From positions 4,774,001 to 4,838,000 of the forward strand of contig NZ_AP018920.1 in the NCBI RefSeq assembly GCF_003945385.1: a stretch of DNA of 64,000 bases, written 5' to 3'. This DNA is from Pseudonocardia autotrophica (lineage in GTDB: Bacteria; Actinomycetota; Actinomycetes; Mycobacteriales; Pseudonocardiaceae). Positions 2,034 through 48,903 of this stretch are shown in pieces (position 1 is the stretch's first letter; each line of letters opens with the position of its first letter). The translations under genes and the position numbers were made by a program. Under the pieces are notes generated by a model that saw nothing but the letters and a program-made list of their open reading frames with translations, was not told where the DNA came from and made no database searches.

Positions 2034-2188
2034 GGCTGGTCCACAGCTGCCCCGATCAGCGGCGGAGCTCGATCGACAGCTGAGCCAGGTCGGCAGCTGA
2101 GCCCGATCAGCGACCGGTCGACGGTCGCCCCCGACCGGCCCCCATCCGCCTCGACCCGCGACGACAGGCGTCGCCCGGGTGCGTGTGC
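2034..2188. repeat. Gap between convergent genes with CAGCTGAG repeats
   Basis: This gap separates two convergent stop codons. CAGCTGAG occurs three times near the 3' end of the activator gene, at about 2027, 2078 and 2093. A short stem (GCGACG/CGTCGC, 2158-2174) lies near the MFS stop and could contribute to termination. There is no T-run, and no coding potential is apparent. Confidence 0.3.
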
Positions 2189-3517
2189 TCAGGCCGGGAC
2201 CGGCCCGTGCGGGTGCCGCTCGTCGACGACCAGCCGGTGCGAGTGCGTCCATCCCCGCGCGGTCCGGTCGGCCCGGGCGACGTGGTCGTGGTCGACGTCG
2301 TCGTCGTGCCGGTGCCGGATCAGGTCCGCGTCCGTCCGCGGCCACAGCGCGGCCGCCGCCCCGGTCCCGAGCACCGCGAGCACGGCGAGCACCAACCAGG
2401 TTCCGGTGAGGCCCACCGCGACGGTGAGCCAGCCGGTCAGCGGGTAGGTGAGCAGCCAGCAGGCGTGCGACAGCGAGAACTGCGCGCTGAACAGCGCCGG
2501 TCGCTGCCCCGGACCGGCGGACACCCGCAGCAGACGCCCGGTGCTGACCATGATCCAGCCCGGGCCGAGCCCGACCAGCGCCCAGGCGAACACGGCGACC
2601 GTCCACGACGGGTACAGCCCGAGCATGACCGTGGCGGCCGCCGCGCCGAGCGAGACACCGGCTCCGGCCAGCATCACCGTGCGCATCGGCGCGCGCCGGG
2701 CGAACCACGGCGTGCAGGCCGCCGCCACCGCGGTGCCCGCGCCGGAGACCGCCAGCAGCAGCCCCACCTCGGCGTCGGTGCCGCCGAGCAGGTCCCGCAC
2801 CACGTTCACCGTGGTGACCAGCGAGATCACCCCGACCGTCGCGACCACCGCGTTCAGCGCCAGCAGGCCGCGCAGCTGCGGGACCGCCCGGAACAGCCGC
2901 ACGCCCAGCAGCAGCCGGGTACCGAATCCGCCGGGAGCACGCTGCGCCACCGGCGGGACGACCGTCACCGCGACCAGCACCGCCGCGACCGCGAATCCGA
3001 CGGCAGTGCCGACGAACAGCGACGAGTAGCCGACCACCAGCAGCGCCGCGGCAGCCAGCAGCGGGCTCAGCACCGTCTCCAGGCTGCTCGCGAGCTGCGC
3101 GGCCGACAGCGCCCGGGTGTAGTCCTGCTCGTCGGTGATGATGTCGGGCAGCACGGACTGGAAGACCGGGGTGAAGGTCGCCGAGGCGACCTGCAGCACG
3201 CCGATCAGGACGAACACCTGCCAGAGTGCGGTGACCCCCGGCAGCGCCAGTACCACCCCGGCGCGGACCAGGTTCGCGGCCAGCATCAACCGGCGGCGCG
3301 GCACCCGGTCGGCGATCGCGCCCACCACCGGGCCGACGAGCACGTAGGCGACCATCTTGACGGTCAGCGCCGAGCCCAGCACCAGCGCGGCCCGCTCCCC
3401 CGCCAGGTCGTAGGCCAGCAGCCCGAGCGCGACCGTGGTGAGCCCGGTGCCGGCGAGTGCCACCACCTGGGCGGCGAACAGCCGCCGGAAACGCACGTCG
3501 GCGAACAGCGATCGCAT
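2189..3517 (-). CDS. MFS transporter with His-rich C-terminal tail
   Basis: 442 residues. The start is ATG at 3517, preceded by AAAAAGGAACGACA, a clear ribosome binding site; an in-frame extension to 3682 has no such signal and is rejected. The protein has about 12 hydrophobic segments and an early LFAAQVVALAGTG stretch typical of DHA-type drug or metal exporters. The conserved loop after TM2 reads ADRVPRRRLM. The last 40 residues are polar and hold repeated His/Asp (RHRHDDDVDHDHV, then THSHRL), resembling metal-binding tails of NreB-like nickel exporters. Export of a divalent metal or a drug is plausible; the substrate is not fixed by sequence. It stands alone, convergent with the Fis activator. 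The 279-bp space upstream to 3796 shows no gene. Confidence 0.8.
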   Translation of the reverse strand: MRSLFADVRFRRLFAAQVVALAGTGLTTVALGLLAYDLAGERAALVLGSALTVKMVAYVLVGPVVGAIADRVPRRRLMLAANLVRAGVVLALPGVTALWQVFVLIGVLQVASATFTPVFQSVLPDIITDEQDYTRALSAAQLASSLETVLSPLLAAAALLVVGYSSLFVGTAVGFAVAAVLVAVTVVPPVAQRAPGGFGTRLLLGVRLFRAVPQLRGLLALNAVVATVGVISLVTTVNVVRDLLGGTDAEVGLLLAVSGAGTAVAAACTPWFARRAPMRTVMLAGAGVSLGAAAATVMLGLYPSWTVAVFAWALVGLGPGWIMVSTGRLLRVSAGPGQRPALFSAQFSLSHACWLLTYPLTGWLTVAVGLTGTWLVLAVLAVLGTGAAAALWPRTDADLIRHRHDDDVDHDHVARADRTARGWTHSHRLVVDERHPHGPVPA

Positions 3518-3796
3518 TGTCGTTCCTTTTTCTCGGATCCGGCGCGAGCCTAGATCCCGGAATCGATCGCCCCAATCACTCAACTGCCACCGAACTGCAT
3601 CAACAACTGGTGTTCGAATGACAGGAACTTCCAGCAGCAAGGACCCTGCGACCTGCGATCCGGCAGCGTGGCCGGTCAGCACGCGAGCAACTCGGACAAC
3701 TGTCCGCGCACTCTCGGCTGTTGCCGTGAATTCGCAACAGCTGCGACCACCGGAACGAGCCGGAAATCACACTCGAGCATCAACTGACGGGACGAG

Positions 3797-4564
3797 TCAC
3801 GGCTCGACCCGGAAGCGCTCGATGTACTGACCCGGCGTCACGCCGAAGTGCCCCTTGAACACCCGCCGGAACGCGCTGGTGTTCACGTACCCCACCCGGC
3901 GCGCCACGGCGTCCGGCGTCGTGTGCGAGCGGAGCAGGATCGCCGCGGCCTCCATCCGATTACCGATCCGCCAGCGACGCAACGTCATGCCGGTCTCGGC
4001 GAGGAAGGCGCGCTCGATCGTCCTGGTGGACGTGTGGACCGACTCGGCGAGCTCGTCGACGGAGCGTTCGTCGCCCGGATTGAATCGCAGCGCCTCGGCC
4101 ACGACGAGCGCCGAGTCGGTCGTCGGCATCGGCATCGAGGTGGCCAGCACGGGCCGTTCCTCGATCAGGGCAAGGATCTGACGGGCGATGTTCGTGCTGG
4201 GCCGGATGATGCTGTAGGTCGACTGGATGAACGCCAGGAACAGGGTCCTCAGGTCACGGTCGACGTCGATCGTGGTCGGCCGGGACAGCGTCGTGGCGGT
4301 CACCGCGACCTCGAAGGACATGGGGAGCAGTACCGCGTTCAGCTGCGTGGTGAACGAGTGCCGGGTGCCGACCGGCAGCCAGAGTGCCTGCCCGACCCGA
4401 AGTCCCCGGGGCACGTCGTCGACGGTGAAGTCGGAGCGGCCCCGCACCTGCCACAGCAGAACGTGCTTGTCGCGTTCGACGCGTTCGGCGATCGACACCG
4501 GCGGCAGGTGGATGCGCCACGGCAGCCCGGTCGCACCGGGCTCGGCGTGATCCGGGTCGCTCAT
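3797..4564 (-). CDS. AraC-family regulator of the siderophore uptake operon
   Basis: 255 residues from ATG 4564 (MSDPDHAEPG). A longer reading from 4660 is open but begins with low-complexity residues. The N-terminal half (about 1-130) is a cupin-like ligand domain with the pattern GQALWLPVGTRHSF. The C-terminal 100 residues are a double AraC helix-turn-helix, including SVDELAESVHTSTRTIERAF and a final RVFKGHFGVTPGQY signature. It is divergent from the ferric-siderophore transporter at 4774. AraC regulators in this setting commonly respond to the cognate siderophore, so it is inferred to activate uptake when the siderophore is present. Candidate direct-repeat half-sites and an iron box lie in the shared 209-bp intergenic region. 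Confidence 0.82.
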   Translation of the reverse strand: MSDPDHAEPGATGLPWRIHLPPVSIAERVERDKHVLLWQVRGRSDFTVDDVPRGLRVGQALWLPVGTRHSFTTQLNAVLLPMSFEVAVTATTLSRPTTIDVDRDLRTLFLAFIQSTYSIIRPSTNIARQILALIEERPVLATSMPMPTTDSALVVAEALRFNPGDERSVDELAESVHTSTRTIERAFLAETGMTLRRWRIGNRMEAAAILLRSHTTPDAVARRVGYVNTSAFRRVFKGHFGVTPGQYIERFRVEP

Positions 4565-4648
4565 CGGCCCGCCGTCGGGCAACCACGCAGCGTGCGACAC
4601 CCGGCCAGTCTCCGGCAGCGACGCCGTTCGGCGGGCGATCGTGGCGCC

Positions 4649-4680
4649 AACTGCACACATCGTGTCGGAATCTGCACCCC
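4649..4680. promoter_or_regulatory. Direct-repeat half-sites, candidate AraC operator
   Basis: CTGCAC occurs at 4651-4656 and again at 4672-4677 on the same strand. The 21-bp start-to-start distance is two helical turns, as expected for the two half-sites of an AraC-family dimer. It lies between the AraC gene and the transporter operon, just beside the iron box. Assignment is by geometry and position only. Confidence 0.4.
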
Positions 4681-4687: not shown

Positions 4688-4706
4688 ATAGCGTTGCCTA
4701 ACCTGA
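4688..4706. promoter_or_regulatory. IdeR/DmdR iron box (candidate)
   Basis: The 19-bp site matches 13 of 19 positions of the palindromic IdeR/DtxR consensus (TTAGGTTAGGCTAACCTAA), with the right half GCCTAACCT nearly perfect. It lies 68 bp before the lipoprotein ATG, where a bound iron-loaded repressor would block transcription. The gene order around it (siderophore import) supports the call. Confidence 0.65.
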
Positions 4707-4773: not shown

Positions 4774-5826
4774 ATGGCTCTCTCCATGTTCCGCCGCGGG
4801 CGGCGGAACGCCGTGCCCGCACTCGCCATCGCGCTGCTGCTGGCGCTGGCCGGCTGCGCGGGTACCGGCAGCGACGACACGGCCGACGGCGGCACCGCAG
4901 CCGGTGGACCGGCGCTCCCCGCGGCCGAGGGCACCACCCGGTACCCGCTCACGCTCACGACCTGGGCCGGCGAGACGACGCTGCAGGAGCGCCCGGAGCG
5001 CATCGCCGTGATCGGGTTCTCCCCCAACGTGGACGCGCTCGAGGCGCTCGGGGTCACCCCGGTCTACACGATGGCGGAGGAGACGGAGTGGCCCTGGCGC
5101 AGCCAGGAGTGGTTCTCCGAGATCGAGATGCGGGACACCGCGACCCGCCGCGACCCGATCAACTTCGAGGGCATCGCCTCGACCGAACCCGACCTGATCA
5201 TCGCCACCAACTTCGTCCAGGACGACGTGGCTTTCGAGCGCCTCAGCTCGATCGCACCCGTACTGGAGAACCCCGAGCAGGTCGCCGGTGACCAGATCTC
5301 CTGGCAGGAGACGCAGCGCATGGTCGGTCGCGCGCTGGACCTCCCGGCAGCCGCCGACACCGTGATCGCCGAGGCCGAGCAGGCGGTCACCACCGCAGCC
5401 CGGGAACACCCGCGGTACGCCGGGCGGACGATCACGATCGCCACGGACTACACCCAGTCCGGCATCGACTACTACACCGTCGCCGGTGGCACCGCCGAAC
5501 GGATCGTTACCGCGATGGGCTTCGCCCCGAACCCGCTGGCCGAACAGTTCGCCGCCGACCCCGGCGTGGCCGACGAACAGGTCGGGCAGCTCGACGGCGA
5601 CGTGCTGGTCATGTTCTACAACGACGCGCCCGGCCGGGAGGCGCGTGAGAGCGCGCCGCTGTTCCAGGCCCTGCCGGCGGTCGCCGAGGGCCGCTACGTC
5701 GGCGTCACCATCGACGAGCCGGGCAGCGAGCTGACCTGGGTGCTGCGGCGCGGGGCGAGCGCGACGAGCCTCCCGTGGGCGGCCGACGAGCTGACGAGGC
5801 AGCTCGACGGGCTCGACCTCGGCTGA
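4774..5826 (+). CDS. Ferric-siderophore ABC transporter substrate-binding lipoprotein
   Basis: 350 residues, start ATG 4774 behind AGGAAAGGACGGTC. A signal peptide with Arg-rich N-region and hydrophobic core ends in the lipobox LAGC (Cys28), so the protein should be lipid-anchored outside the membrane. The mature part is a FepB/FhuD-type periplasmic-binding fold: after the linker the typical RPERIAVIGFSPNVDALEALG leads into a PDLIIAT segment. It would capture the extracellular ferric siderophore and deliver it to the permeases encoded next. It is the first gene of a five-gene operon (4774-9732). The iron box and AraC half-sites upstream suggest iron repression with siderophore-dependent activation. 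Confidence 0.9.
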   Translation: MALSMFRRGRRNAVPALAIALLLALAGCAGTGSDDTADGGTAAGGPALPAAEGTTRYPLTLTTWAGETTLQERPERIAVIGFSPNVDALEALGVTPVYTMAEETEWPWRSQEWFSEIEMRDTATRRDPINFEGIASTEPDLIIATNFVQDDVAFERLSSIAPVLENPEQVAGDQISWQETQRMVGRALDLPAAADTVIAEAEQAVTTAAREHPRYAGRTITIATDYTQSGIDYYTVAGGTAERIVTAMGFAPNPLAEQFAADPGVADEQVGQLDGDVLVMFYNDAPGREARESAPLFQALPAVAEGRYVGVTIDEPGSELTWVLRRGASATSLPWAADELTRQLDGLDLG

Positions 5827-5832: not shown

Positions 5833-6912
5833 GTGCCGACCACCAGGCTCCGGCGACGCACCGGGCGGGGAGACGCCCCAGCCCGGTCGTCCGGCCGGGC
5901 GTCCGCCCCGTCGTCGCTGTACCGGCGCCGGGCCCTCGGGCTCGGCGCCATCGTCGCCGCGCTCGCGGTCGCCGTGCTGCTGAGCCTGGCGCACGGTGCG
6001 AACCCGGTCGGCTACGACCAGGTGTGGTCGGCGCTGTGGTCCCGTGACGGCTCCGAGGCGTCGATCATCGTGTGGACCGAGCGGTGGCCCCGCACGGTCG
6101 TCGCGCTGTTCGTGGGCGCCGCGCTCGGCGTCGCCGGCGCACTGATCCAGGCGCTCACCCGCAACCCGCTGGCCGAGCCCGGCATCCTCGGCGTCAACGC
6201 GGGCGCCGGGTTCGCCGTCACCCTCGGCGCCGGGGTGTTCGGCCTGACGAGCATCACCGGGTACCTGTGGTTCGCCTTCCTCGGCGCCGCGGTGACCACG
6301 GTCGTCGTGTTCGTCATCGGCTCGGCCGGCGGCGGGACCGCGTCGCCGGTCACCCTGGTGCTCGCCGGGGTGGCGCTCGGCGCGGTGCTCAACGGCTTCT
6401 CGACCTTCCTCACCCTGATCGACCCGGAGACCTTCCGCGCGTTCCGCAACTGGGGGCTGGGCTCGATCGACCGCACCGGGCTGGCCGACACCCTGCTCGT
6501 CGCCCCCTTCCTGATCGCCGGTCTGATCGGTGCCGTGGCGCTGGCCGGTGCGCTGAACTCGATCGCGCTCGGCGACGACCTGGCCGCGTCGCTCGGCACG
6601 AAGGTGGCCAGGGCCCGGGTGCTCGGCATCGTCGTGATCACCCTGCTCGCCGGCGGTGCGACCGCGCTGACCGGCGGGATCGCCTTCGTCGGGCTGATGG
6701 TGCCGCACGTGGTGCGCTGGTTCGTCGGGCCGGACCAGCGGTGGATCATCGCCTACTCGGCGCTCACCGCCCCGGCGCTGGTGCTCGTCGCCGACGTGCT
6801 GGGCCGGGTGATCGCCCGCCCCGGCGAGATCGAGGTCGGCATCGTCACCGCGATCATCGGCGCGCCGGTGCTGATCGCGCTGGTTCGCAGGAGGGAGGCG
6901 AGCGGCCTGTGA
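5833..6912 (+). CDS. FecCD-family siderophore permease, first subunit
   Basis: 359 residues from GTG 5833, six bases after the lipoprotein stop; the ribosome binding site is weak, so translation is probably coupled. An Arg-rich N-terminal stretch of about 35 residues precedes roughly ten transmembrane segments. Family signatures include GAALGVAGALIQALTRNPLAEPGILGV near the first third (read here as two motifs: a Gly-rich helix and the RNPLAEP loop) and the late GLMVPHVVRW motif that contacts the ATPase. It pairs with the next gene to form the membrane channel of the ferric-siderophore importer. Its last four bases overlap the start of that gene. Confidence 0.9.
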   Translation: MPTTRLRRRTGRGDAPARSSGRASAPSSLYRRRALGLGAIVAALAVAVLLSLAHGANPVGYDQVWSALWSRDGSEASIIVWTERWPRTVVALFVGAALGVAGALIQALTRNPLAEPGILGVNAGAGFAVTLGAGVFGLTSITGYLWFAFLGAAVTTVVVFVIGSAGGGTASPVTLVLAGVALGAVLNGFSTFLTLIDPETFRAFRNWGLGSIDRTGLADTLLVAPFLIAGLIGAVALAGALNSIALGDDLAASLGTKVARARVLGIVVITLLAGGATALTGGIAFVGLMVPHVVRWFVGPDQRWIIAYSALTAPALVLVADVLGRVIARPGEIEVGIVTAIIGAPVLIALVRRREASGL

Positions 6913-8015
6913 CCCGCACCCGACACGACGTCCCGGGCCCCGGGACCGGCGAGCCGGTCGACTTCGGCTATCCGCTGCGCACCGTCCGCACCCCGCTGTT
7001 CTCCGGCCGGATCGGACTGCGGCTGGTCGGGGTCTCGGCGGTGCTGCTCGCCCTCGCACTCGGGGTCTCGGTGTTCGCGCTCGGCCTGGGCGACTACCGG
7101 CTCGGCGCCGGCGAGGTCGCCCGCGCCCTGGTCGGCGGCGGGGAGCGCTTCCACCGCACGATCGTGCTCGAGTGGCGGTTGCCGGTGGTCACGGCCGCGC
7201 TCGTGTTCGGCGCGCTGCTGGGCGTCGGCGGGGCGATCTTCCAGTCGCTCACCCGCAATCCGCTCGGCTCGCCGGACGTGATCGGCTTCGACGCCGGCTC
7301 CTACACCGGCGTGGCGCTGACCGTCCTGGTGTTCGGCGCCGGCAGCTACTGGAACATCGCGGCCGCCGCGCTGGCCGGCGGGCTGGTCACCGCGCTGGCG
7401 GTGTACCTGCTGGCCTACCGGGGCGGCATCGCCGGGTTCCGGCTGATCGTCGTCGGGATCGCGATCGCGGCCATGCTGCACTCCACCAACGCCTACCTCA
7501 TCACCCGCGCCGACGTCGAGGATGCGCTGACCGTCGGATTCTGGGCCGCCGGCTCGATCGCGAACATCACCTGGTCGTCGATGCTGCCGTCGCTGGGGAT
7601 CGCCGCGGTGGTCCTGGGCGCTGCGGTCGTGCTGTCGCCGTCGCTGCGCCGGCTCGAGCTGGGCGACGACGCCGCCGTCACCCAGGGCACCCGGGTCGGC
7701 ACGGCCCGGCTGTCGCTGCTGGTCGTCGGGGTGGCGACGACGGCGCTGGTGACCGCGGCGGCCGGGCCGATCGCGTTCATCGCGCTGGCCGCCCCGCAGA
7801 TCGCCCGCCGGCTGAGCCGCACCGCAGGCGTCAGCACGCTGTCCGCCGCCTGCACCGGCGCGGCCCTGCTGGCCGGCGCACACCTGCTCTCCCTGGTGAT
7901 CGCCGAGGTGTACCGGGTCGTCCCGGTCGGACTCCTCACGGTCTGCCTGGGCGGCATCTACCTGATCTGGCTGCTGGTGCACGAGGCCCGCCGGCAGTAC
8001 GGCACCCATCCATGA
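6909..8015 (+). CDS. FecCD-family siderophore permease, second subunit
   Basis: 368 residues from GTG 6909, overlapping the previous stop by 4 bp (GTGA) and preceded by GGAGGGAGG, a strong ribosome binding site. The frame stays open upstream to 6072, but that is a shadow of the first permease. It has about nine to ten transmembrane helices, the FQSLTRNPLGSPDVIG loop and the late AAPQIARRL version of the PHxxR coupling motif. It forms the heterodimeric permease with its neighbour. The order lipoprotein-permease-permease-ATPase-reductase matches catecholate siderophore uptake operons of actinobacteria. Confidence 0.9.
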   Translation: MTRTRHDVPGPGTGEPVDFGYPLRTVRTPLFSGRIGLRLVGVSAVLLALALGVSVFALGLGDYRLGAGEVARALVGGGERFHRTIVLEWRLPVVTAALVFGALLGVGGAIFQSLTRNPLGSPDVIGFDAGSYTGVALTVLVFGAGSYWNIAAAALAGGLVTALAVYLLAYRGGIAGFRLIVVGIAIAAMLHSTNAYLITRADVEDALTVGFWAAGSIANITWSSMLPSLGIAAVVLGAAVVLSPSLRRLELGDDAAVTQGTRVGTARLSLLVVGVATTALVTAAAGPIAFIALAAPQIARRLSRTAGVSTLSAACTGAALLAGAHLLSLVIAEVYRVVPVGLLTVCLGGIYLIWLLVHEARRQYGTHP

Positions 8016-8035
8016 GCGGGAACGGGAGACCCCCG

Positions 8036-8902
8036 ATGACCAGCACGACCTCCGGGAACACCGACACCGCCGGGGCCGGCGCGCCTGCCGGGCCCGGCGC
8101 TGCACGGATCGTCACCCGGGACGCGACGATCGGCTACCGGCGCCGCGTCGTCGCCGAACACCTCTCCGTCGAGGTACCCGACCGGTCGTTCACCGCGATC
8201 ATCGGCCCCAACGGCTGCGGCAAGTCCACCGTGCTGCGGGCGCTGTCCCGGATCCTGCCGCCGAGCTCGGGCGAGGTGCTCCTCGACGGCCGGGCGATCG
8301 CCGAGTACCCGGCCAAGGGGGCCGCCCGCCTACTCGGCCTGCTGCCGCAGAGCTCGCTGGCCCCGGACGGCATCCGGGTCGCCGACCTGGTCGCCCGCGG
8401 CCGCGCGCCGTACCAGAACCTGTTCCACCAGTGGCGTCCTTCCGACGAGGCCGCGGTGCGTGACGCGCTCGCCGCGACCCGGCTCACCGAGCTGTCCGGC
8501 CGGCTGGTCGGCGAGCTGTCCGGCGGTCAGCGGCAGCGGGTGTGGGTGGCGATGCTGCTGGCCCAGGACACCCCGATCATGCTGCTGGACGAGCCGACCA
8601 CGTTCCTCGACATCGCCCACCAGTACGAGCTGATGGAGCTGTTCCGCACCCTGCACGCCGACGGCCGGACGATCGTGGCGGTGCTGCACGATCTCAACCA
8701 GGCCGCCCGCTACGCCGACCACCTGATCGTCATGCAGGACGGCCGGGTCGTCACCACCGGCCCGCCGCAGGCGGTGATCACCGCCGAGCTGATCGAGGAG
8801 GTCTTCGGGCTCCGCTGCCTCGTCGTCCCCGATCCGGTCACCGGTACCCCGACCGTCGTGCCGCTCGATCCCCGCACCTCGACCACCGAAGGAACCCGAT
8901 GA
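8036..8902 (+). CDS. Siderophore ABC transporter ATP-binding protein
   Basis: 288 residues. ATG 8036 is preferred because GGGAG precedes it; an in-frame ATG at 8012 overlaps the permease stop but lacks such a signal. All ATPase motifs are intact: Walker A GPNGCGKST (57-65), signature LSGGQRQR, Walker B IMLLDEPT and the switch His in AVLHDLNQAARY. The sequence has the FepC/FecE character. It energises import through the two permeases. The stop overlaps the next ATG by 4 bp, so the importer and the reductase should be made together. Confidence 0.92.
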   Translation: MTSTTSGNTDTAGAGAPAGPGAARIVTRDATIGYRRRVVAEHLSVEVPDRSFTAIIGPNGCGKSTVLRALSRILPPSSGEVLLDGRAIAEYPAKGAARLLGLLPQSSLAPDGIRVADLVARGRAPYQNLFHQWRPSDEAAVRDALAATRLTELSGRLVGELSGGQRQRVWVAMLLAQDTPIMLLDEPTTFLDIAHQYELMELFRTLHADGRTIVAVLHDLNQAARYADHLIVMQDGRVVTTGPPQAVITAELIEEVFGLRCLVVPDPVTGTPTVVPLDPRTSTTEGTR

Positions 8903-9732
8903 CCGCTCCCGGACCCCGGACCCGCAGGCCCCAGATCGTGCTGGAGGTGTTCGAGCGCGTGCAGCTCTCGCCGCACCTGATGCGCATCGTCGCGGGCGGG
9001 CCCGCCCTGGCCGACGCCGCCGAGAGTGCCGCGAAGGGGCACACCGACACCTACACCAAGATGCTGTTCCGGCCGGCCGGCTCGGAGCTCGTCCCGCCCT
9101 ACGACCTGGCCGCGCTGCGCGAGCGGCTGCCGGTGAAGCAGCTCCCCTCGACCCGGACCTACACGATCCGGCGCTTCGACCTCGCGGCCGAGCGGATCTG
9201 GATCGACTTCGTCGTGCACGGCGACGCCGGGATCGCCGGGCCGTGGGCGGCGTCCGCGCGGCCGGGCGATCCGGTCGTGCTCGGCGGGATCGGCAGCGGC
9301 TACGCCCCCGACCCGGGCGCCGACCGGCACCTGCTGGCCGGGGACGAGTCGGCGCTGCCGGCGATCGCGTCGGCGCTGGAGGCGATGCCCGCCGACGCGC
9401 GCGGGACGGCGCTGATCGAGGTCGGCACCGCGGCCGACGAGCTCGACCTGGTCGCGCCGGAGGGGATCGAGGTGCGGTGGCTGCACCGCGGCGGCGCCGG
9501 GGCGGGCACCAGCACGGTGCTGGTCGACGCGGTCCGCGCGCTGGAGCGGCCGGACGGGGACGTGCAGGTCTTCGCGCACGGCGAGCGCGGGGCGATGAAG
9601 GCGCTGCGGCCGTACCTGGCCGACGAGTGCGGGATCGACCGGTCCCGGCTGTCGCTGTCGGCGTACTGGGCGCACGGCCGCGGCGAGGACGCGTTCCAGT
9701 CCGAGAAGCGCGAGCCGATCGGCCAGGTCTGA
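8899..9732 (+). CDS. Siderophore-interacting protein (ferric-siderophore reductase)
   Basis: 277 residues from ATG 8899, overlapping the ATPase stop (ATGA) with AAGGAA upstream. It belongs to the SIP/ViuB/YqjH family: the FAD-binding RTYT motif is at 86-89 and is followed by a DFVVHGDAGIAGPWA segment typical of the family. The C-terminal half carries the NADPH-binding fold and ends in the SAYWAHGRGEDAF signature. It should reduce the ferric siderophore in the cytoplasm and release ferrous iron. As the last gene of the uptake operon it ends just before a strong hairpin at 9741. Confidence 0.92.
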   Translation: MTAPGPRTRRPQIVLEVFERVQLSPHLMRIVAGGPALADAAESAAKGHTDTYTKMLFRPAGSELVPPYDLAALRERLPVKQLPSTRTYTIRRFDLAAERIWIDFVVHGDAGIAGPWAASARPGDPVVLGGIGSGYAPDPGADRHLLAGDESALPAIASALEAMPADARGTALIEVGTAADELDLVAPEGIEVRWLHRGGAGAGTSTVLVDAVRALERPDGDVQVFAHGERGAMKALRPYLADECGIDRSRLSLSAYWAHGRGEDAFQSEKREPIGQV

Positions 9733-9800: not shown

Positions 9801-10895
9801 TCAGCCCGCGGGCACCGCCCCGGCCCCGGTCCGGGCCACCAGCTCGTCCAGCGCGGCCGCGCCGCGGGCGGCCACCTCGTGCGGGTCCCGCCGGCGCAGC
9901 GCCGGATCGAACAGCTCCAGGGACAGGGCCCCCCGGTAGCCGCCGGCCAACAGGGCGGCCAGCGGCCCGACGAGATCGAACTCACCGTCCCCCGGCAGGC
10001 AGCGGTGGTTGCGGCTCCACTCCGCGAGCCCGCCGGACCGCCACGGCGCATCGGAGACCTGGACCAGCGAGATCTTCCCGGCCGGCACCCCCGCCAGTGC
10101 CGCGGCGTCCTCACCGCGGCAGATGAGATGGAAGGTGTCGACGGCGACCGACAGCGCCGGATGATCGGCGCGGCGCACGACGTCCCACGCGTCGGTGAAC
10201 CGGCCGACGTGGGTTCCCCAGGCCAGGGCCTCGTAGGTCACCGTCATTCCCCGGTCGGCGGCGGCGTCGGCCAGCGTGGTGAGCTGGCGGACGGTGCGGT
10301 CCCGGTCGGGATCGGCGTCGGCGTCGGTGTTGGAGACGACGAGGATCGACGACGCGCCCACGTCGGCCATGACGTCGAGCTCGCCGCGGAAGCGGGCCAG
10401 CACGGCGTCGAACTCGGCGTCGTCCACCCCCTCGGCGCGCCGGAACGGCTGGTACAGGTCGATGTCCAGACCGAGCTCGGCGCAGCGGGCCGCCACCCGG
10501 GCCGCCGCCCACGGCCCGTCACGCAGGTCGGCGTCGAGCAGCTCGACGCCGTCGAACCCGGCCGCGGCCGCGGCGTCGAGCTTCTCGGGCAGTGTCCCGC
10601 CGAGCGAGACGGTCGCGATGCAGGTGCGGACCCGGGTCGCCGGCTCCGGATCGTCCCGGGTCTCCGCCTGCAGCTCACCCAGCAGCTCCAGCCAGCGTTC
10701 CAGCCTGCGGTCCTCGGCGAGCAGCACGAAGCTGACCCCCGGCACGCCCGCCCGGCGCCACCGGTCGACCAGCTCCATCGTGCGCACCGAGTCCAGGCCC
10801 TGCTCCCGCAGGTCGAGCCGGTGGTCCACATCGCGGGGTTCCAGGAACAGCACCTCCGCGACGTCCGCGGCGGCCTCGTCGGCGGTCAGGCTCAT
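9801..10895 (-). CDS. Aryl carrier protein fused to 3-dehydroshikimate dehydratase
   Basis: 364 residues from ATG 10895, overlapping the NRPS stop by 4 bp. Residues 1 to about 80 are an aryl carrier protein: [16 protein letters not shown] carries the phosphopantetheine Ser36 and closely resembles the carrier end of EntB/DhbB. Residues of about 88-360 form a TIM barrel of the QsuB/QuiC/AsbF 3-dehydroshikimate dehydratase family: [31 protein letters not shown], then metal-site candidates in [15 protein letters not shown] and LSLELFD. That family makes 3,4-dihydroxybenzoate (protocatechuate). In EntB an isochorismatase sits N-terminal to the carrier; here the partner enzyme is different and the order is reversed. 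Inference: the protein both makes the aryl starter and carries it to the first NRPS condensation domain. No entA, entB or entC gene is in the window. Confidence 0.85.
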
Positions 10896-13800
10896 CGATG
10901 TCCCTCCTGGTTGTGGGTCCCCGGTCCGCTGCGCTGGAGCAGGCCGGTGAGGTGGTGCGCCCAGTGCGGCAGGCCGCGATCCGGGCGGACGATCGCGTTG
11001 TGGTCGGCGTCCCCGACGTGCACCGTGCGGGCGCGCGGCAGGTGCGCGGTCCACCCGGCGATCCCGGTGCCGGCGGCCGTGTCGGCCTCGACCGGTGCGC
11101 CGGCCGCGACCAGCAGCGCCGGGCAGTCGAGCCCGCCGGTGGTCGGCTCGGCCATGTGCCGCTCGCACCGCAGCCCGGACACGGCGAACGCGGTGAGCTG
11201 GGTGTGGTCGGCGAAGACCTCGGCGCTCGCCTGTTCGCCGAGCACCTCGCGCAGCTCCCCGGAGGTCGCGCGCAGGAACTCCTCCTGCCGGAGCGTGTCG
11301 GCGGCCACCGGCACGCCGGGACGGGGCGCCACGTCACCCGGGTCGGGGACGTGGTCCGGGCCGGTCGGGGTGGTGTCGATGATCGTGATCGTGGCGACCG
11401 GCTCGCCGCGTGCGACGAGCTCGCGGGCGACGGCGAACACGATGTGCCCGCCGAAGGACCAGCCGAGCAGGTCGTAGGGTCCGGCCGACTGGACCCGCTG
11501 GACCGCGTCGGCGTAGACGGCGGCGAGCTCGCCCATCGAGCCGAACTCGGTGTCCAGCCCGGCGTGCGCCGGATCCTGCAGCCCGACGACGCCGACCCCG
11601 GGCGGGACGTGGCCGGCCAGCGCCGAGTACAGCGAGGCGTGCCCGTAGCGGGCGTGCGCGCAGAACAGGTGCCGGCCGGTGGTCGACGGCGCGAGCGGCA
11701 TCAGGACGGCACCGGCCACGTCGGCTGAGCCACCGCCACCCGGATCGGCGCCGGAGCCGGGATCGATCAGCTCGGCGATCGAGGCGAGATCCTGCGCGGT
11801 GAACACGTCGCGCACCAGCAGCCCGGAGCCGAGCCGCTCGTTCAGCCGCGCGACCAGGCGCATCGCGAGCAGCGAGTTGCCGCCGGCGTCGAAGAAGCCC
11901 GCGGTCGCCGACACCTGCGGCACGCCGAGGAGCTCGGCGACGGCACCGGTGACCGCGGCCTCGGCCGGGGTGCGCGGTGCCACGTGCTCGGCGGCGTCGG
12001 TCGTGATGTCCGGCAGTGCCCGCGCCTCGATCTTGCCGTTGACCGTCAGCGGCAGCTCGTCGATCGCGGCCAGCCCGGCCGGGACCATGTAGTCGGGCAG
12101 CAGCTGCCGCGCGCGTCCCCGCACCGCGTCGAGGGCGATCTCGCCGGCCGCCGAGACCAGGTAGCCGTACAGCGCCGTCGAGCCCTGCGGGTCCGGGCGG
12201 GCGATCACCGCGGCCCGGGCGACCTGCGGGTCACCGGCGAGCACGTCGGCGACCTCGCCGGGCTCGATCCGGTACCCCCGGATCTTGACCTGGTCGTCGG
12301 CGCGGCCGAGATAGTCGATGGTCCCCTCGGGGGTCCAGCGGGCGAGGTCCCCGGTTCGGTACATCCGGGTGCCGGGTTCCCACGGGCAGGCGACGAACCG
12401 CTCCGCGGTGCGCCCCGGCTCGGCCCAGTAGCCGCGGGCGGTCCCCGCCCCGGCCAGGTAGAGCTCGCCGGGCACGCCGGGCAGCGCCGGGTGCAGGGCC
12501 CCGTCGAGGATGTAGGCGCGGGTGTTGGCGATCGGCCGTCCCACGCTGGACGTCTCCGAGCGGGACAGATCGGCGCCCAGCGCGTTGATCGTGTACTCGG
12601 TCGGTCCGTAGAGGTTGTAGGACTCGACCCCCGGTGCCTCGCGCAGCCTGCGCCACAACGCCTCCGGCACGGCCTCGCCGCCCAGCGACACGAACACCAC
12701 ACCGGGCGCGTCGGCGGCGACCGACCGCCCCGCCGGCCGGTCCCGGTCGAGCAGGCCGGAGTCGACGAGCAGCTGCCCGTAGGAGGGGGTGACGTCGAAC
12801 CCGTCGATCCGGGCGGCGTCGTAGTGGTCGAGCAGCCGCTGCGGCTCGCGCCGCAGCTCCTCGTCGATCACGTGCACCTCGTGCCCGTTGAGCAGCCAGA
12901 ACAGCTGCTCCCAGGAGGCGTCGAAGGAGAACGACGTGGTGTGCGCGATCCGCATCCGGCGCCCGCCCTGGTGGGCGACGACCCGGTCGAAGATCTCCTC
13001 GACGTGGTTGGCGTACATGTTCGTCAGGCCGCGGTAGCCGACCGCGACCCCCTTGGGCAGCCCGGTCGATCCCGAGGTGAAGATGACGTACGCCAGGTTG
13101 TCCTGCTCGATCGGCCCGCCCCGCTCTGCGTCGGTCACCGGGGTGGGATCGCCCGCCGCCAGCTCCGCACGTACCGCCGGGTCGTCGAGATCGAGCAACT
13201 CACCGGCACTCCCCCGGCCGGAGCCAGGCGCGGGCCCCGGGACGCGGGCGGCGTCCCGGGTGGTCACCAGGGTCGCGGTCGGGCGCGCGATGTCGAGCAT
13301 CGTCCCGATCCGCTCGTCCGGGTGCTCGGCGTCGATCGGCACGTAGGCGGCGCCGACGGTGAAGACCGCGAACATCGCGACGACCATCCGCTCGTCGCGC
13401 GGGAGCAGCAGCGCCACCCGGTGCTCGGGACGGACCCCGCGGGAGAGCAGCAGCCGCGCGTAGCGGTTCACCTCGGCGGCGAACCCGGCGAAGGTGAGAC
13501 TGCGGTCACCGGCGACGATCGCCGTCTCCTGCGGGGAGCGGACGACCTGCTCGTCCAGCAGGTCGGCCACCGTCACCTCGCGCACCGGGCGGGCCGCCCC
13601 GGCGGGCGACGGCGGCCGCTCGTCGGGCAGGTAGGTCCCGACCCGGGCGACCGGCCGGTTCGGGTCGGCGGCGAGCTCGCCGAGGACGTGCAGGTAGCGC
13701 TCGGTGAGCCGGTCCGCGGCGTCGGAGCCGAGGGCGTCGCGGCGGTAGGACAGCCGCACGTGCACGGTGGCGTGGCCGGCCCGCTCCCAGGGGTTCACCG

Positions 13801-16800
13801 CGACGGTGACCGGGTAGTGGGTTGCGTCGTTGACCGTGCCCCCGGTCACCCGCAGCCCGCCCGGCGCCGTCTCGTCGGTACCGAACGGGTCGAACGGCAG
13901 GTTCTGCACCACGAACAGGGTGTCGAACAGCGCGCCGAGCCCGGTGGCGTCCTGGATCCGGGTCAGCTCCGCGTAGGGGTGGTCGAGTACCCGCAGCTGC
14001 TCGGTCCGGATCCGGGACAGGAGCTCGCCGACGCTCTCGGCGGGCCGGAGGCCGACCCGCATCGGCAGCGTGTTGAACAGCAGCCCGATCATCCGGTCGG
14101 AGCCAGGGAGCTCCGGTGGCCGCCCGGAGACCGTGTTGCCGAACACGACGTCGTCGCCACCGGTGACGCGGGCGAGGGTGAGCGCCCACGCGGCCTGCAG
14201 CAGGGTGCCGACGGTGACCCCGGCCCGGCGGGCTGCGGCGTGCACCGCGGCGGCCGCCTCCGGAGTGAGGTCCCGGTGCACGTCGCCGGTGTCGACCCGG
14301 GTCAGGCCGAGGTCGCCGCCCTCGGGCCAGAGCAGGGTCGGGCCCGCGAGATCGGCGAGGTAGTCGTCCCACGCCCGGTGGGCGGCGGTGGTGTCGCGGG
14401 CGCCGAGCCAGTCCAGGTAGTCCTCGAACGACGCCGGCCCGGTCCGTTCGGGCAGTCCCGGATCGGCGTAGCTGTCGACGATCTCGGCGAGCAGGGCATT
14501 GATCGACCAGCCGTCCATGAGGATGTGCTCGAAGGTCATCGCGAGGGTGGCGGCCCGCTCGGCGTGCCGGACCAGGGTGAACCTGATCAGGGGCGGGTCG
14601 GTGAGGTCGAACGGGACGCGGCGTTCGCGCTCCAGGTAGGACGCGGCGGTGTCGCCGGCGAGCTCGTCCGGGCCGACCACCCGGAAACCGGCCGTGGCCC
14701 CGGCCGGGACGACCGCCACCTCGGTGTCGTGCAGTGGCACGAAGGCCGCGAACAGGTTCGGGTACCGGGCACACACCCGTTCGACGGTGCGGCGCAGGTG
14801 GTCGACGTCGAGTTCCCCGCTGATCTCGCGCAGCACCTGCGAGACGTAGGCGTTGTTGTCGCCGGTCTCGCGGGACCGGACCATGTGGTAGAGCAGTCCG
14901 CTCTGCAGGGCGGACAGCGGCAGCAGCCTGCTGTCCGGGCCGTAGCGGGCGCGGAGGCGGTCGGCGTCGGCCGGTGCGACGCGGACCCGGTCGGCGGGCC
15001 GCAGCTGCGGGCGGCCCGGGTGCACGCCGGGTTCCCGGCCGACGGTCAGCGCGACCCGGGTCCGGTAGGACGCCACGAGCTCAGCGGCGAGCCCGGCCAC
15101 GGTGCCGAGCGCCGCGGCCGGGCCGCCGCCGGGCCCGGCGAGCGCCGGACCGTCGGGGTGCCCAATGAGCTCTGCGGAGCCGTCGTCGCGCACGTGCAGG
15201 GTGAGCGGGCCCGCCCCGGGGAGGGTGCAGCTCAGGTACTCCAGCGCGGCGTTCCAGGAGGCGACGTCGCCCGGGTCGAGGTCCGGCAGCGGATGGCGGG
15301 CCTCGGGCCCGGCCCCGGAGTGCACCGGGTCGGCTGTGTCCCGGTCGGCCCGGTCGTCGAGCCGGTCGCCTGCTGCCCGGACGAGCTGGACGAGATGGCG
15401 TACCGGTAGATGCGGGTAGCGGGCTCCGAGGACCAGGAACCGGTGCACCCGGGCGAGCAGGCGGTCGGCGGTGGCGGCGGTGAACAGCTCTCGGGCGGAG
15501 TTGAGCTGCAGGTCGAGCTGCCCGTCGGGGCGCCGAACGACGAGCCCGACCAGGTCGGACAGGGCGGGCCTGGCCCGGTCGTCGGCCGCGGCGGCCACGA
15601 CCGCCGGATCGGGGACGAGCCGGCGCGGCCGGTGGTCGTCTCGCCGGTGGTCGTCTCGAAAGGCGGCCATGACCTGGAACAGCGGGCTGATCCCCGGGAT
15701 CCGGGGCGGCGCGAGGGTCTCGACGACGCTGTCGAACGGGGCGTGCTTGTGCTCGCCGGCGTCGACGACCCGGTCGCGGACGTCGGCGAGCAGCTCGCCG
15801 AACCCGGCGCTGTCGTCGACGTCGGCGCGCACGACGACGGTGTTGACGAGGTAGCCGATGGCGTCGGCGAGCTCGGGCTGGTCGCGCAGCTCGACCGGGG
15901 TGCCGACCGGGACGGTGCTCCCGGCGCCCTCGGCCCACAGGCCGAGCGCCAGCGCGGTGACGAGTCCCTGCAGCGGGGTGGCCCGCCGGTCCGAGAGCAG
16001 CCGGTCGACGGCGGCGGACCCCTCGCCGCCCAGTCCGGCCCGCACGGTCCGGATGGTGCGTTCGGTGGTCTCGGCCCGCGGCCGGTCCAGCGGCAGCGGG
16101 GTCTCGACCGGCAGGTCGGCCAGCTGCTTCGCCCAGTGCTCCAGGTCGGCCCGGAACCGGGAACCCGGGTCGTGGCGGTCGCCGAGCAGGCGGCGCTGCC
16201 ACACCGCGAACTCCGCGGACTGGACGGGCAGCGGGGGCAGCGCGACCGGCGTGCCGGTCAGCTCGGCGTCGTAGAGCGCGTCGAGATCGCGGACCAGCGG
16301 CCGCACCGATCCCTCGTCGATCACGATGTGGTGGCCGTGCACGACGAGCAGGTCGTCCCGCCCGGCCGGTCCGGCCCCGGTGCGGTCGTGCACCTGGAGC
16401 AGGGTGAACCCGGCGCCGCCGTCGACGGCCAGGTCGCGCCGCTCGGCGAGCAACTCGCCGACCCGTGCCGGGACGTCGTCGGCGGCGACGGTCCGGACGG
16501 TCGGGCCCGGCTGCTGCGGCGGCGCGGTGACGACCTGGGTGAGCAGCCCGTCGTCGGCGACGAAACGGGTACGCAGGATCTCGTGCCGTTCGACGAAGCG
16601 GTGCAGCGCCCGGCCGAGCGCAGCGACGTCCGCGCCGCCGGGGATCCGCAGCACGATCCCGACCTGGTAGGCCGGGCCCATCCCGAGCTCACCGAGCACC
16701 CACAGCGCCTGCTGGCCGAAGGACGCCGGGATCGGGTCCGGGCGGACGACCCCGGTGATCGGTGGCAGCGGCGAGCTGTCGTGCCGGGCGGGGCCGGACA

Positions 16801-19800
16801 CGGCGGCGGCCAGACCGGCGATCGTCGGGTGGGCGAACACGTGCCGCAACCGCAACGCGGACGCGAGTGTGGTGTTGACGCGGGTCAGCAGCCGGGCGGC
16901 GAGCAGCGAGTGCCCACCCAGGCGGAAGAAGTCGTCGTCGACACCGAGCGCGGTGTCCGGGTCGAGTGCCAGCACCTCGCGGAACGCGGTGGCGAGCAGC
17001 CGCTCGTGGTCGGTGGCCGGGGCCCGTCCGGCGGCTCCGGTGCCCGGCCCGGGAGCGGGCAGTGCGCGCCGGTCGACCTTGCCGTTCGGGGTGAGCGGCA
17101 GCTGGTCCAGCTCCACCAGCGCCGAGGGCACCAGGTGGTCGGGGAGCCGCTCGGCCAGGAAGGCCCGCAGCTCCCCCGGCACGTCCGGGCCGGTCGACCC
17201 GGGGCGCACGGTCACGTACCCGACGAGGCGCATGCCGCCCGCCGGGTGTTCGGCGGCGACGACGACAGCCGAGGAGACCGCCGGATGCGCGCGCAGCACG
17301 GCGCGTGCCTGGCCGGGCTCGACCCGGTGCCCACGGATCTTGACCTGGTCGTCGGCGCGGCCCAGGTGTTCGAGCCGGCCGTCGGCGGTCCATCGGGCCA
17401 GGTCGCCGGTCCGGTAGAGCCTGCCGCCGCCGGCGGCGGCGAACGGATCGGCGACGAACCGCTCGGCGGTGAACGCCGGTCGGCCCAGGTAGCCGTCGGC
17501 CAGCTGGGCACCGCCCAGGTACAGGTCACCGGTCACGCCGGGGCCGACCGGGCGCAGCCGGCCGTCGAGCACCCGCGCGGTGACGCCGGGTTGCGGGCGC
17601 CCGATCGGCACCCGCCCGCCCGCGCGCGCTGTGTCGACGGTGCAGACGGTGGCATCGCCGGTGACCTCGGTCGAGCCGTAGAAGTTGTGCAGCACGGCAC
17701 CCGGGGCGAGCCGGCGCATCGTGTCCCGCGTCCCGGGGGTGAGCGGCTCCCCGGACGACACCCAGTGCCGCAGCGTGTCCGGTCCCGGGTCCCCGGCGGT
17801 GTGCGGCTCGGCACCGAGCCCGTCGGCCAGAGCGGGCACCGTGAGCAGGTGGGTGATGTCGTGGTCGCGCACGGCCGACCACAGTGCGGCGGCGTCGCGG
17901 GCGATCCGGTCAGGCGCGACGACGACGGTGGCTCCCGCGGTGAGCGGGCCGAACAGCTCGGTCACCGCGTCCACGAAACCGACCCCGCTCTTGACCAGCG
18001 CCCGCGACCCGGCGCCGAGGCCGAGCAGGGCGTTTCCCCAGCTCAGCCGGTTGGCCAGGGCGGCGTGCGGGAGCTGCACCCCCTTGGGCTCGCCGGTGGT
18101 GCCGGAGGTGAAGATGATCTGTGCGGGATCGCCGCCGGACGGGGCCCGGCGGTCCGCCGGGGCCGGCGGCGCCTGCGGCGCCTGCGCCACCTCCGGGACG
18201 TCGAGCAGCCGGTCGGCATCGAGCGGCAGCTCCGGCCCGCCGGGGGCGGTGACCACGAGCCGGGGCCGGGCGACCTCCACCAGCCGGGCGAGGTGCGCCG
18301 GCGGATGTGCCGGGTCGAGCGGCACGCAGGCCGCCCCGGCACGCAGCACGCCGGCGAGCACCGGCACGAGATCGACGCCGCGCGGCAGCAGCACGCCCAC
18401 CCGGTCGCCCACCGTGACACCCCGCTCGGCGAGGGTGGCGGCCACGGCGTCGATCCGGGCGTCGAGCTGGGCGAAGGTCCACCGGCGACCGCTCGCACCG
18501 TCCACGACCGCCGTCGCCGTCGGGGTGGCCGCGATCCGCTGCCGCAGCATGGCGTCCACCGTGGACGCCCCGGCGGGTGCCCCGGTCGTGCCGCGGGACC
18601 ACTGCTCGATCCGTGCGAGGTCGTCGGTGGGCAGCAGCTCCAGGCGGGCCAGCGGCTGCTCCGGATCGGCCGCGAACGCGGCCAGCGCCCGGGTGAGCAC
18701 CGCGACGAACCGCTCGGCGGTGGCCCGGTCGAACAGATCGGTCGCGGCGCTGACGAACCCGTCGATGCCGTCCGGGCGGTCCGTCAGGTACACGTCCAGG
18801 TCGGCCTTCACGGCGCCGATGCCGGTGCCGTCCGGGTGGACGTCGGCGCCCGGCAGCACCAGCGGGTAGGACTCGCCGGTGTGCTGCTGGTGGGTCAGCA
18901 TGACCTGGTACACGGGGTTGCGGCCGGTGTCCCGGCCGGCGCCGGCGGCGGTGACGATCCGGTCGAACGGCGCGTCCTGGTGGGCGAAGCCGTCGAGCAC
19001 GGTCTCCCGGGCCCTGGCCAGCACGTCGGCCGGCCGGTCGGCGGCGGAGAAGCGGTGCCGGAACGGCAGCACGTTCGCGAAGTAGCCGACCGCGTCGGCC
19101 AGGCCCTCCTCGGTGCGGCCGCCCACCGGCGACCCGACGACCACGTCGGCGTCGGCCGAGCCGGTGCCGTCGAGCGCGGACACGGCGAGTGCGACGGCGG
19201 CCTGGGCGATCATGAAGGAGGTGACGCCGTGGCGGGCGGCCACCGTGCGCAGCGCGCTCACCACGTCGCCGTCGAGTGCGAACCCGACGTCCTCGCCCCG
19301 GTGGGTCGGCTCGGCGGGCCGCGGCCGGTCCGCGCAGATCGTCGACTCCTCCGGCGCGCCGGCCAGCGCATCCCGCCAGTACGCCAGATGCCCGGCCAGC
19401 ACCGAACCCGGGTCGTCCGCCCGGCCCAGGTGGGCACGCCGGCTGATCGCGTGATCGGCATACTGCACCGGCAACGGCGCCCGTTCCGGCTCCCGTCCGG
19501 CCCGACGCGCCCGATACGCCACCGACACGTCCCGCAGCAGCACCGGCAGTGACCACTCGTCGACCGCATGGTGGTGCACCGCCAGCACCCACCGCCACTC
19601 CTGCGCCCCGGTGCGCAGCACCGCCACCCGCACCGGCAGGTCCACGGCCAGGTCGAAGCGGGCCCGCACCACCCGGGCAACCCGCTCGTCGAGCACCTCC
19701 GGCGCGGCAGCGCTCAGGTCCTCCATCGTGCACACCAGCCGCCGCCCCGCCTCGTCGGCGGGGACGACCACCTGCACCAGCCCGCCGCCGTCGTCGTCGC

Positions 19801-22800: not shown

Positions 22801-23140
22801 ACAGCGTGTCCGATCCGGTCGCCGGCGTGCGGTAGTCGATCCGGGCGCGATCGACGATCGCGTCGTCGTCGAGCGGTTCGTGCACGATCGCGGTATGCAC
22901 CGTGGCGTCGTCGTCGACCCGTTGCACCGGCGATCCGTCGATCTCGCCGAACCGCGCGCGCAGTGCCTCGGTCTCGGTGACCGCCGCGTCCACCGCCTCG
23001 ACGAACGCGACCGGATCGATCGGCCCGGCCATCCAGATGATCTGGCCGACCCGATAGACGGTCGAGTCCGGGAACAGCTGCTGCGCGGACCACACCCCGC
23101 GCTGCGCGACGGACAACGGCAGGCGTACCGGATTGCTCAC
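10892..23140 (-). CDS. Three-module siderophore NRPS (C-A-T-C-A-T-C-C-A-T-TE)
   Basis: 4082 residues from GTG 23140, with AAGGA five bases upstream, one base after the ligase stop. Approximate layout: C1 5-440 (HHLVLDA at about 133, EntF-like starter type), A1 460-960 (FTSGTTG about 600), T1 (GGHSLL about 997), C2 1040-1480 (HHHAVDE about 1189), A2 1510-2030, T2 (about 2075), C3 2140-2575 (HHIVIDE), a linker of about 160 residues, C4 2740-3180 (EHILMDG), A3 3200-3690, T3 (GGNSLL about 3753), and a thioesterase 3800-4082 with GWSFGG. Pocket codes read by eye are A1 D-V-P-N-M-A-I-E-I-K (no confident match), A2 V-D-T-L-V-S-F-G-D-K (beta-alanine-like, lacking Asp235) and A3 D-A-E-D-S-G-L-I-N-K (acidic, suggesting a basic residue such as ornithine, lysine or arginine). 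Predicted product: an aryl-capped peptide siderophore. No MbtH gene lies nearby. Confidence 0.92.
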
Positions 23141-25565: not shown

Positions 25566-25592
25566 ATGACCATGGCTCCGCGTGACCCCTGA
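25566..25592 (+). other. Eight-codon leader frame before the ABC exporter gene
   Basis: ATG 25566 has the best ribosome binding site of the area (GGAAAGGAC, three bases before the ATG) but the frame stops after MTMAPRDP. The stop overlaps the GTG at 25582 of the transporter gene, which has no Shine-Dalgarno of its own. This could be a coupling leader peptide, or the true start displaced by a one-base indel. Confidence 0.45.
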
Positions 25593-45495: not shown

Positions 45496-45524
45496 GCACC
45501 TGCACCCACAGTCGAGGAAGACTG

Positions 45525-46790: not shown

Positions 46791-46805
46791 GTCCCGGAGG
46801 TGCAC

Positions 46806-48858
<2,053 letters not shown>

Positions 48859-48872
48859 TCCCGGCCGATCCC

Positions 48873-48903
48873 GGCGGTCCCCGCTCCCGGAGCGGGGACC
48901 GCC
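48873..48903. terminator. Bidirectional terminator hairpin
   Basis: Perfect 14-bp stem (GGCGGTCCCCGCTC/GAGCGGGGACCGCC) with a 3-base loop, between the hydrolase stop (48858) and the convergent stop of the fusion gene (48937). Very stable, no T-run, well placed to end both transcripts. Confidence 0.7.

Follow-up and report, generated by a model that had tools for sequence, protein, structure and literature searches.

EntB and DhbB join an aryl carrier to an isochorismatase for 2,3-dihydroxybenzoate (2,3-DHB). In the window considered here, a 64,000-nucleotide stretch of the Pseudonocardia autotrophica genome (NZ_AP018920.1, positions 4,774,001 to 4,838,000), a carrier of this type is fused to a putative 3-dehydroshikimate dehydratase (DSD) beside a siderophore NRPS, which raises the question of the aryl acid with which this NRPS begins its product. 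The sequence-only reading had proposed that the NRPS uses 3,4-dihydroxybenzoate (3,4-DHB) made by its own carrier protein. The sequence evidence gathered in this study supports that proposal, and we place the probability that the fusion protein produces the 3,4-DHB used by this NRPS at roughly 0.82, because the DSD active site is conserved, because the clustered AMP ligase has lost Asn235, has gained Arg239 and co-segregates with the DSD, and because three of the six genomes compared are without a convincing dhbA. The fusion gene and its two domains are located as follows:

9801 to 10895, minus strand: fusion protein of an aryl carrier (ArCP) and a DSD, 364 aa, with the carrier N-terminal and the DSD barrel C-terminal (ORF, Pfam/NCBIfam, PDB, model)
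10659 to 10895, minus strand: aryl carrier domain, residues 1-79, with predicted phosphopantetheine attachment at Ser36, codon 10788-10790 (Pfam, PDB match, model)
9840 to 10631, minus strand: DSD barrel, residues 89-352, with the active-site set R152, L185, E222, L224, D253, H256, Q279, S294, R298 and E327 (NCBIfam, QuiC1 match)

The fusion is encoded by an ATG-start ORF of 364 residues on the minus strand (window:9801-10895). The NRPS upstream of it ends in CATCGATGAGC, and the overlap of the NRPS stop (TGA) with the fusion start (ATG) as ATGA agrees with the translational coupling suggested earlier. The EntB-like carrier that had been placed N-terminal to the barrel (GLDSVR, Ser36) was likewise recovered: residues 12-67 match Pfam PP-binding (E 1.3e-4; 22.6 bits against a cut-off of 20.8), residues 19-73 match EntB (2fq1) in a PDB sequence search (E 0.0012), and the GLDS motif holds Ser36 as the predicted modifiable serine. 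The carrier occupies residues 1-79 of the fusion, and the stretch of EntB that it matches lies at 233-283 of 287. Besides PP-binding, only the AP_endonuc_2 barrel exceeded its cut-off in the Pfam scan of the fusion, with no isochorismatase domain found. An AlphaFold2 model, computed from an alignment of 24 sequences, has a mean pLDDT of 92.3 and consists of a helical carrier (residues 5-79), a loose linker (about 80-88) and then the barrel. A search for further carrier-dehydratase fusions returned seven others (358-373 aa) among 120 listed matches; together with fused genes in three genomes (G000, which is the window's own, G002 and G038), these proteins rule out an assembly error or a chance fusion.

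The barrel is the domain on which the identity of the acid depends. Residues 106-351 correspond to the Pfam xylose-isomerase-like barrel (E 8.4e-39), and residues 91-352 match the NCBIfam QuiC model for 3-dehydroshikimate dehydratase (E 1.1e-72), with a score of 245 bits that is far under the cut-off of 1200 because the match covers only 262 of the model's 635 positions. QuiC1 (5hmq) matches the barrel in the PDB sequence search (E 3.8e-67) and is also the top PDB fold for the fusion model (rmsd 1.3 A, 45% identity in the structural alignment), whereas AsbF (3dx5) came only at rank 39, with 14%, in the structural comparison, which rules out an AsbF-type barrel, and was absent from the PDB sequence matches of the fusion at E<=1. 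The barrel type had been given as 'QsuB/QuiC/AsbF'; the QuiC/QsuB-like part of that assignment stands and the AsbF-like part falls. All ten active-site residues common to QuiC1 and QsuB (PMC7442255) are identical in the fusion barrel, and the same ten are invariant in all 24 aligned sequences, the window's included. Assignment of the barrel as a 3-dehydroshikimate dehydratase is well supported by this conserved active site. The protein stops after the barrel, and a C-terminal HPPD-like domain is absent. The window's genome has no close QuiC-type DSD other than the fusion barrel, and the next-best match there is 33% identical; a second DSD match occurs in G002 (49%) and in G038 (47%), both in long open frames. 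The best further match in 394 class genomes (G222, 55%) was set aside as a catabolic DSD, being a 619-aa QuiC-type gene whose neighbours look catabolic by eye.

The genes around the fusion present all the features of an aryl-capped NRPS siderophore cluster, namely an EntE-type ligase, an ArCP, C-A-T modules with a thioesterase, and iron-siderophore uptake genes; no IucA/IucC-type (NIS) synthetase was found among 14 cluster proteins in a Pfam scan. The neighbouring features are:

10892 to 23140, minus strand: siderophore NRPS, 4082 aa, C-A-T-C-A-T-C-C-A-T-TE, with A2 beta-alanine-like and A3 hydroxyornithine-like (domain scan)
23142 to 24782, minus strand: EntE/DhbE-type aryl-AMP ligase with the altered pocket Ser235/Arg239/Ser240 in DhbE numbering (domain scan, alignment)
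24779 to 25186, minus strand: panD, aspartate 1-decarboxylase, probable beta-alanine supply (ORF opens at 25303; PanD homology from Met40)
25413 to 25431, plus strand: iron-box-like site of the IdeR/DmdR type with 4 mismatches in 19 positions, lying between the exporter genes and the panD operon
25582 to 27330, plus strand: ABC exporter half (Pfam)
27327 to 29057, plus strand: ABC exporter half (Pfam)
8899 to 9732, plus strand: siderophore-interacting FAD protein (SIP), its gene converging on that of the fusion (Pfam)
8012 to 8902, plus strand: ABC ATPase, FepC-like (Pfam)
6909 to 8015, plus strand: FecCD permease (Pfam)
5833 to 6912, plus strand: FecCD permease (Pfam)
4774 to 5826, plus strand: FecB-like substrate-binding protein, Peripla_BP_2 (Pfam)
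4688 to 4706, minus strand: iron-box-like site with 5 mismatches in 19 positions, upstream of the gene for the FecB-like protein
3797 to 4660, minus strand: AraC-family regulator (Pfam)
2189 to 3682, minus strand: MFS transporter, possible siderophore exporter (Pfam)

With what we take to be the code positions and their meanings, the A-domain codes were read by eye as DVPNMAIEIK (A1), VDTLVSFGDK (A2, beta-alanine-like) and DAEDSGLINK (A3, hydroxyornithine-like). The A2 motif also occurs in G038, G032 and G009, and twice in G002, and the A3 motif occurs in G002, G038, G032, G023 and G009. Additionally, in all six genomes panD is no more than about 70 bases away from the ligase match, and each of the six encodes an Orn/Lys N-oxygenase, which in G000 is distant from the cluster. 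Given the A2 and A3 codes, the adjoining panD and the N-oxygenase, the product is likely a 3,4-catecholate peptide with beta-alanine, perhaps a hydroxamate as well; the beta-alanine made by PanD is probably incorporated into it. Among known siderophores, kasichelin contains beta-alanine, and the words 'decarboxylase', 'panD' and 'aspartate' are absent from the main text of the kasichelin paper; kineochelin was dropped as a precedent, being a salicylate system. Tandem condensation-type domains were observed in the NRPS (window about 13633-16729, NRPS residues about 2138-3170), and neither an adenylation nor a carrier motif separates them. The idea that this pair is the scar of a lost beta-alanine module was weakened by G002, which has two beta-alanine-like modules plus the tandem pair.

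Iron control was addressed with a 19-base sequence that we take to be the IdeR/DmdR iron-box consensus. A strict search of the window (<=3 mismatches) returned no site, and the two iron-box-like sites come from a relaxed second search, in which the two best places in the window, 25413 (4 mismatches) and 4688 (5), are both upstream of cluster genes; 20 first-order Markov-simulated windows contained a mean of 0 sites at <=5 mismatches. The best sites in the corresponding stretches of G002 and G038 have 4-6 mismatches. Elsewhere in the window, ferredoxin-, P450- and flavoprotein-like frames were seen by eye at 44467-52742, together with a weak match to the protocatechuate-dioxygenase family near 49078-49446 (36.7 bits), and this region suggests an aromatic or alicyclic catabolic cluster.

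The pocket of the ligase bears most directly on the acid that is activated. The window's ligase is 97% identical to one assigned to Pseudonocardia sp. NPDC046786. The alignment comprised 18 of the 23 ligase matches from the six Pseudonocardia genomes that carry a DSD of this type (the three named above and G023, G009 and G032) and four of five PDB relatives. In each of the six genomes, the ligase closest to that of the window carries Ser235/Arg239/Ser240, and Asn235 is found in 10 of the other 12 aligned ligases, including the dhb-cluster ligases of G000 and G038, as well as in the four PDB reference ligases; the two remaining ligases, both remote, have Leu and Cys at this position. The fifth PDB alignment, EntE 6iyk, has Gly at 235 and was left out of the comparison, since it is presumably an engineered variant. 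On a larger scale, 120 listed ligase homologues (of 6495) divide into 72 with the altered pocket (70 Ser-Arg-Ser and 2 Ala-Arg-Ser) and 48 with the classical one (Asn-Ser-Ser), and Ser240 is retained in every one of the 72; one of the two Ala-Arg-Ser ligases belongs to Demetria, whose DSD is fused.

In DhbE, Asn235 contacts the 2-hydroxyl, and the retention of Asn235 in salicylate ligases also suggests that it serves this group. In BasE, Asn242 and Ser247, which correspond to DhbE Asn235 and Ser240 by motif and not by alignment, bond the hydroxyls of 2,3-DHB, and both are given bonds to the C3 hydroxyl (PMC12005286). For that reason loss of the Asn does not by itself name the missing hydroxyl, and it is we who infer the choice between 2,3-DHB and 3,4-DHB from Asn235. 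Two further pocket types were observed. A third ligase subgroup combines Ser235-Arg239 with the pocket GSGVS (P0185, P0188-P0194, P0196, P0197, P0199, P0201 and P0205), its named members coming from Parafrankia, Phytohabitans, Pseudonocardia and Kineosporia. Its ligases have no linked DSD among the matches listed, and such Ser-Arg-Ser ligases (e.g. P0185, P0188-P0194) weigh against the 3,4-DHB reading. A second aryl ligase in G002, with a salicylate-type pocket (Asn235, Cys240), lies beside a chorismate-binding enzyme (G002:C1:2934205-2936675), and this locus is probably a salicylate siderophore cluster.

Co-occurrence of the altered ligase with the DSD was tallied among 120 listed matches of 1297 for the DSD and 120 of 6495 for the ligase. 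Contig sharing was counted for 119 DSDs (P0002 left out; 56 below 380 aa and 63 longer, including P0019), and 16 of these are apparently on the same contig as a listed ligase, a judgement that in most of the 16 rests on equal contig size and not on contig names; the ligase is Ser/Ala-Arg-Ser in all 16 and Asn in none. The shared contigs include sizes of 8.0, 10.0, 11.3 and 29.7 kb. The linked DSDs measure 270-373 aa and are therefore one-domain or fused, and the named genera among them are Pseudonocardia, Demetria, Williamsia, Rhodococcus/Rhodococcoides and Nesterenkonia; by this count, the pairing of an unfused DSD with the ligase extends to other genera. Direct coordinates place the DSD and the ligase on one contig in G000, G002, G038, G009 and G032, and on different contigs in G023, a fragmented assembly. 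The order of fusion, NRPS, ligase and panD is the same in G002 and G038. In one metagenome protein, P0019 (570 aa), a single reading frame covers a DSD followed by the beginning of a ligase (Thr235, Arg239), which makes it another kind of fusion within this pathway; it may be frameshifted, its ligase part ending early.

The fusion is rare. Fused proteins number 8 among the 120 listed DSD matches, from Demetria terragena, Pseudonocardia or unnamed sources, and of 62 genomes of the genus only 3, counting that of the window, carry a fused gene. In G023, G009 and G032, a separate DSD lies beside a separate carrier gene whose product is 56-58% identical to the window's carrier; the two genes are on opposite strands and face each other, and therefore a lost stop codon alone could not yield the fusion from that layout. 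No match outside the genus was found in a family sample (390 genomes, query P0002) at the threshold used or in an order sample of 397 genomes searched with P0014, an unfused relative (E<=1e-90), and no match covering the carrier was found beyond the six genomes in a class sample (394 genomes); a scan of genome contigs gave 12 remote barrels at 27-35% identity. A quick maximum-likelihood tree of 121 barrels, with a root for drawing only, was built from the 119 DSDs, P0002 and the 5hmq barrel, P0019 being labelled one-domain and the two-domain class consisting of 62 matches plus QuiC1. In this tree, 56 of the 58 one-domain or fused sequences separate from a group of 65 that holds all 63 two-domain sequences (SH-aLRT 100). 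The group of 56 includes all 8 fused and all 12 further ligase-linked sequences; the two exceptions, P0067 and P0115, are one-domain sequences that group with the two-domain ones. This tree gives the fusion a single origin (support 96) and makes it one branch of a larger unfused family.

A supply of 2,3-DHB from elsewhere in the genome had been named as an observation that would refute the proposal, and in the window's genome this objection applies in part. A DhbC-like isochorismate synthase is encoded there near 2.50 Mb, and the region near 6.58 Mb holds a stand-alone carrier, a DHB ligase and a dhbA-like SDR (287.7 bits against a cut-off of 300); 2,3-DHB is therefore probably available in this cell. 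However, that pathway has a carrier and a ligase of its own, the latter with the classical pocket (Asn235). The 2,3-DHB genes of G000 are split between L062 6279-9793 (2.49 Mb) and L060 17233-19998 (6.58 Mb). At the 2.49 Mb locus the isochorismate synthase adjoins an N-monooxygenase, and an isochorismatase-like frame was seen by eye with no NCBIfam match at 1e-20. The best TIGR04316 match in G000 is at 6.59 Mb and two TIGR00543 matches above cut-off are at 2.50 and 6.37 Mb; homologues of EntA and EntC are not in the cluster at 4.78-4.80 Mb among the matches listed. Best dhbA matches reach 272-288 bits in G000, G038 and G023 and 164-177 bits in G002, G009 and G032, the latter being the level of many other SDR matches in the same search; by a dividing line that we set ourselves, none of the six genomes reaching the family cut-off, G002, G009 and G032 appear to have no convincing dhbA.

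Combined, these observations are best explained by a route in which the C-terminal barrel would draw 3-dehydroshikimate from the shikimate pathway and dehydrate it to free 3,4-DHB. The AMP ligase encoded next to it would activate this acid and load it on the Ser36 phosphopantetheine arm of the same polypeptide's carrier, and the first condensation domain of the NRPS would accept the 3,4-DHB group. The NRPS would then extend it with a first amino acid, with beta-alanine from PanD and with an ornithine-type residue, and the thioesterase would release a 3,4-catecholate siderophore. A protocatechuate 3,4-dioxygenase beta subunit scores above the family cut-off in all six genomes, and because this enzyme could consume free 3,4-DHB, we suggest that holding the dehydratase next to the acceptor carrier may reduce its loss.

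The 2,3-DHB genes at the two other places in G000 also allow for an NRPS loaded with 2,3-DHB made elsewhere, with the DSD as a bystander that makes free protocatechuate as an iron ligand or nutrient. Sources name the altered-type ligases 2,3-dihydroxybenzoate-AMP ligase, and a Pseudonocardia cluster with this order was assigned 2,3-DHB in a 2016 prediction (PMC5183585), which both agree with this view. Nevertheless, it is unlikely: the clustered ligase is without the Asn235 that the genome's own dhb ligase keeps, the dhbA matches of G002, G009 and G032 are all <=177 bits, and the DSD accompanies an altered ligase in 16 of 16 apparently shared contigs among the matches listed. A variant in which the ligase loads 3-dehydroshikimate on Ser36 and the fused barrel dehydrates the tethered thioester would fit the linker of about ten residues between carrier and dehydratase and the on-carrier tailoring that we take to be common in NRPS systems; if it were true, free protocatechuate would never appear and would be safe from the cell's protocatechuate dioxygenase. 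Such on-carrier aromatisation is very improbable, given that the ten residues of an active site acting on the free acid are kept, that in G023, G009 and G032 the DSD is not joined to the carrier and the genes for the two lie on opposite strands, and that the ligase is closely related to DhbE, presumably an activator of flat aryl acids. We attach equally little credence to a ligase that uses another aryl acid (e.g. 4-hydroxybenzoate or a gallate-like acid), so that 3,4-DHB itself would not be the starter. Taken by itself, the altered pocket shows that a contact with a DHB hydroxyl has changed, and a 4-hydroxybenzoate moiety is found in the metallophore methylolanthanin (PMC11317620), but Ser240, whose BasE counterpart Ser247 bonds a DHB hydroxyl (PMC12005286), is kept throughout the altered ligases listed, and 3,4-DHB is what a DSD makes, the gene for this one being in the same operon.

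With 3,4-DHB as the predicted starter, the system resembles EntB/DhbB in that one polypeptide combines an aryl carrier with an enzyme of aryl-acid supply and has as its partners a ligase of the EntE/DhbE type and an EntF-like NRPS, but it has a DSD barrel and an N-terminal carrier where EntB/DhbB have an isochorismatase, a C-terminal carrier and 2,3-DHB. The likeness to QuiC1/QsuB lies in the barrel, with its 45% identity in the structural alignment, full active-site set and same predicted reaction, whereas the fusion is without the HPPD-like domain, is joined to a carrier and sits in a siderophore operon and not in quinate/shikimate catabolism. Petrobactin is made with AsbC-AsbD and the NIS synthetases AsbA/AsbB. 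As in that system, a DSD would supply 3,4-DHB to a ligase and carrier for a siderophore; here, however, an NRPS takes the place of the NIS synthetases, the barrel is far from AsbF (14%), and the carrier is fused to the DSD. AsbF is named as the 3,4-DHB source in a paper that treats a rhodopetrobactin NIS cluster (PMC13251462).

Siderophore cluster I of the ant-associated Pseudonocardia Ps1 was predicted to yield 2,3-DHB-ser-ala-(ala)-orn (PMC5183585). Its order and its optional second Ala match the clusters described here, with one beta-alanine-like domain in G000 and G038 and two in G002, and for this reason the cluster described in 2016 was probably of this kind, with its starter taken to be 2,3-DHB; the DSD is unmentioned in the accessible part of that paper. 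In the accessible sections of a 2026 eLife survey, the chelator groups of nearly all NRP metallophores are listed without 3,4-DHB, and the antiSMASH rule for 2,3-DHB (catechol) is EntA plus EntC (PMC12971057). The route had been thought undescribed, and in the open-access literature, at the level of titles and the starts of abstracts, neither an NRPS siderophore built on 3,4-DHB nor a carrier-DSD fusion was found, which agrees with that view.

If this reading is true, peptide siderophores would have a second catechol starter route that is missed by current automated rules, Ser/Ala235-Arg239 in DhbE-type ligases would offer a specificity code open to testing, and the name 2,3-dihydroxybenzoate-AMP ligase would be wrong for a number of the ligases that bear it at present. 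The 3,4-DHB siderophore petrobactin escapes the siderophore-binding protein siderocalin, and therefore 3,4-DHB chemistry matters beyond the genus. The fusion itself would be a clean case of convergence with EntB.
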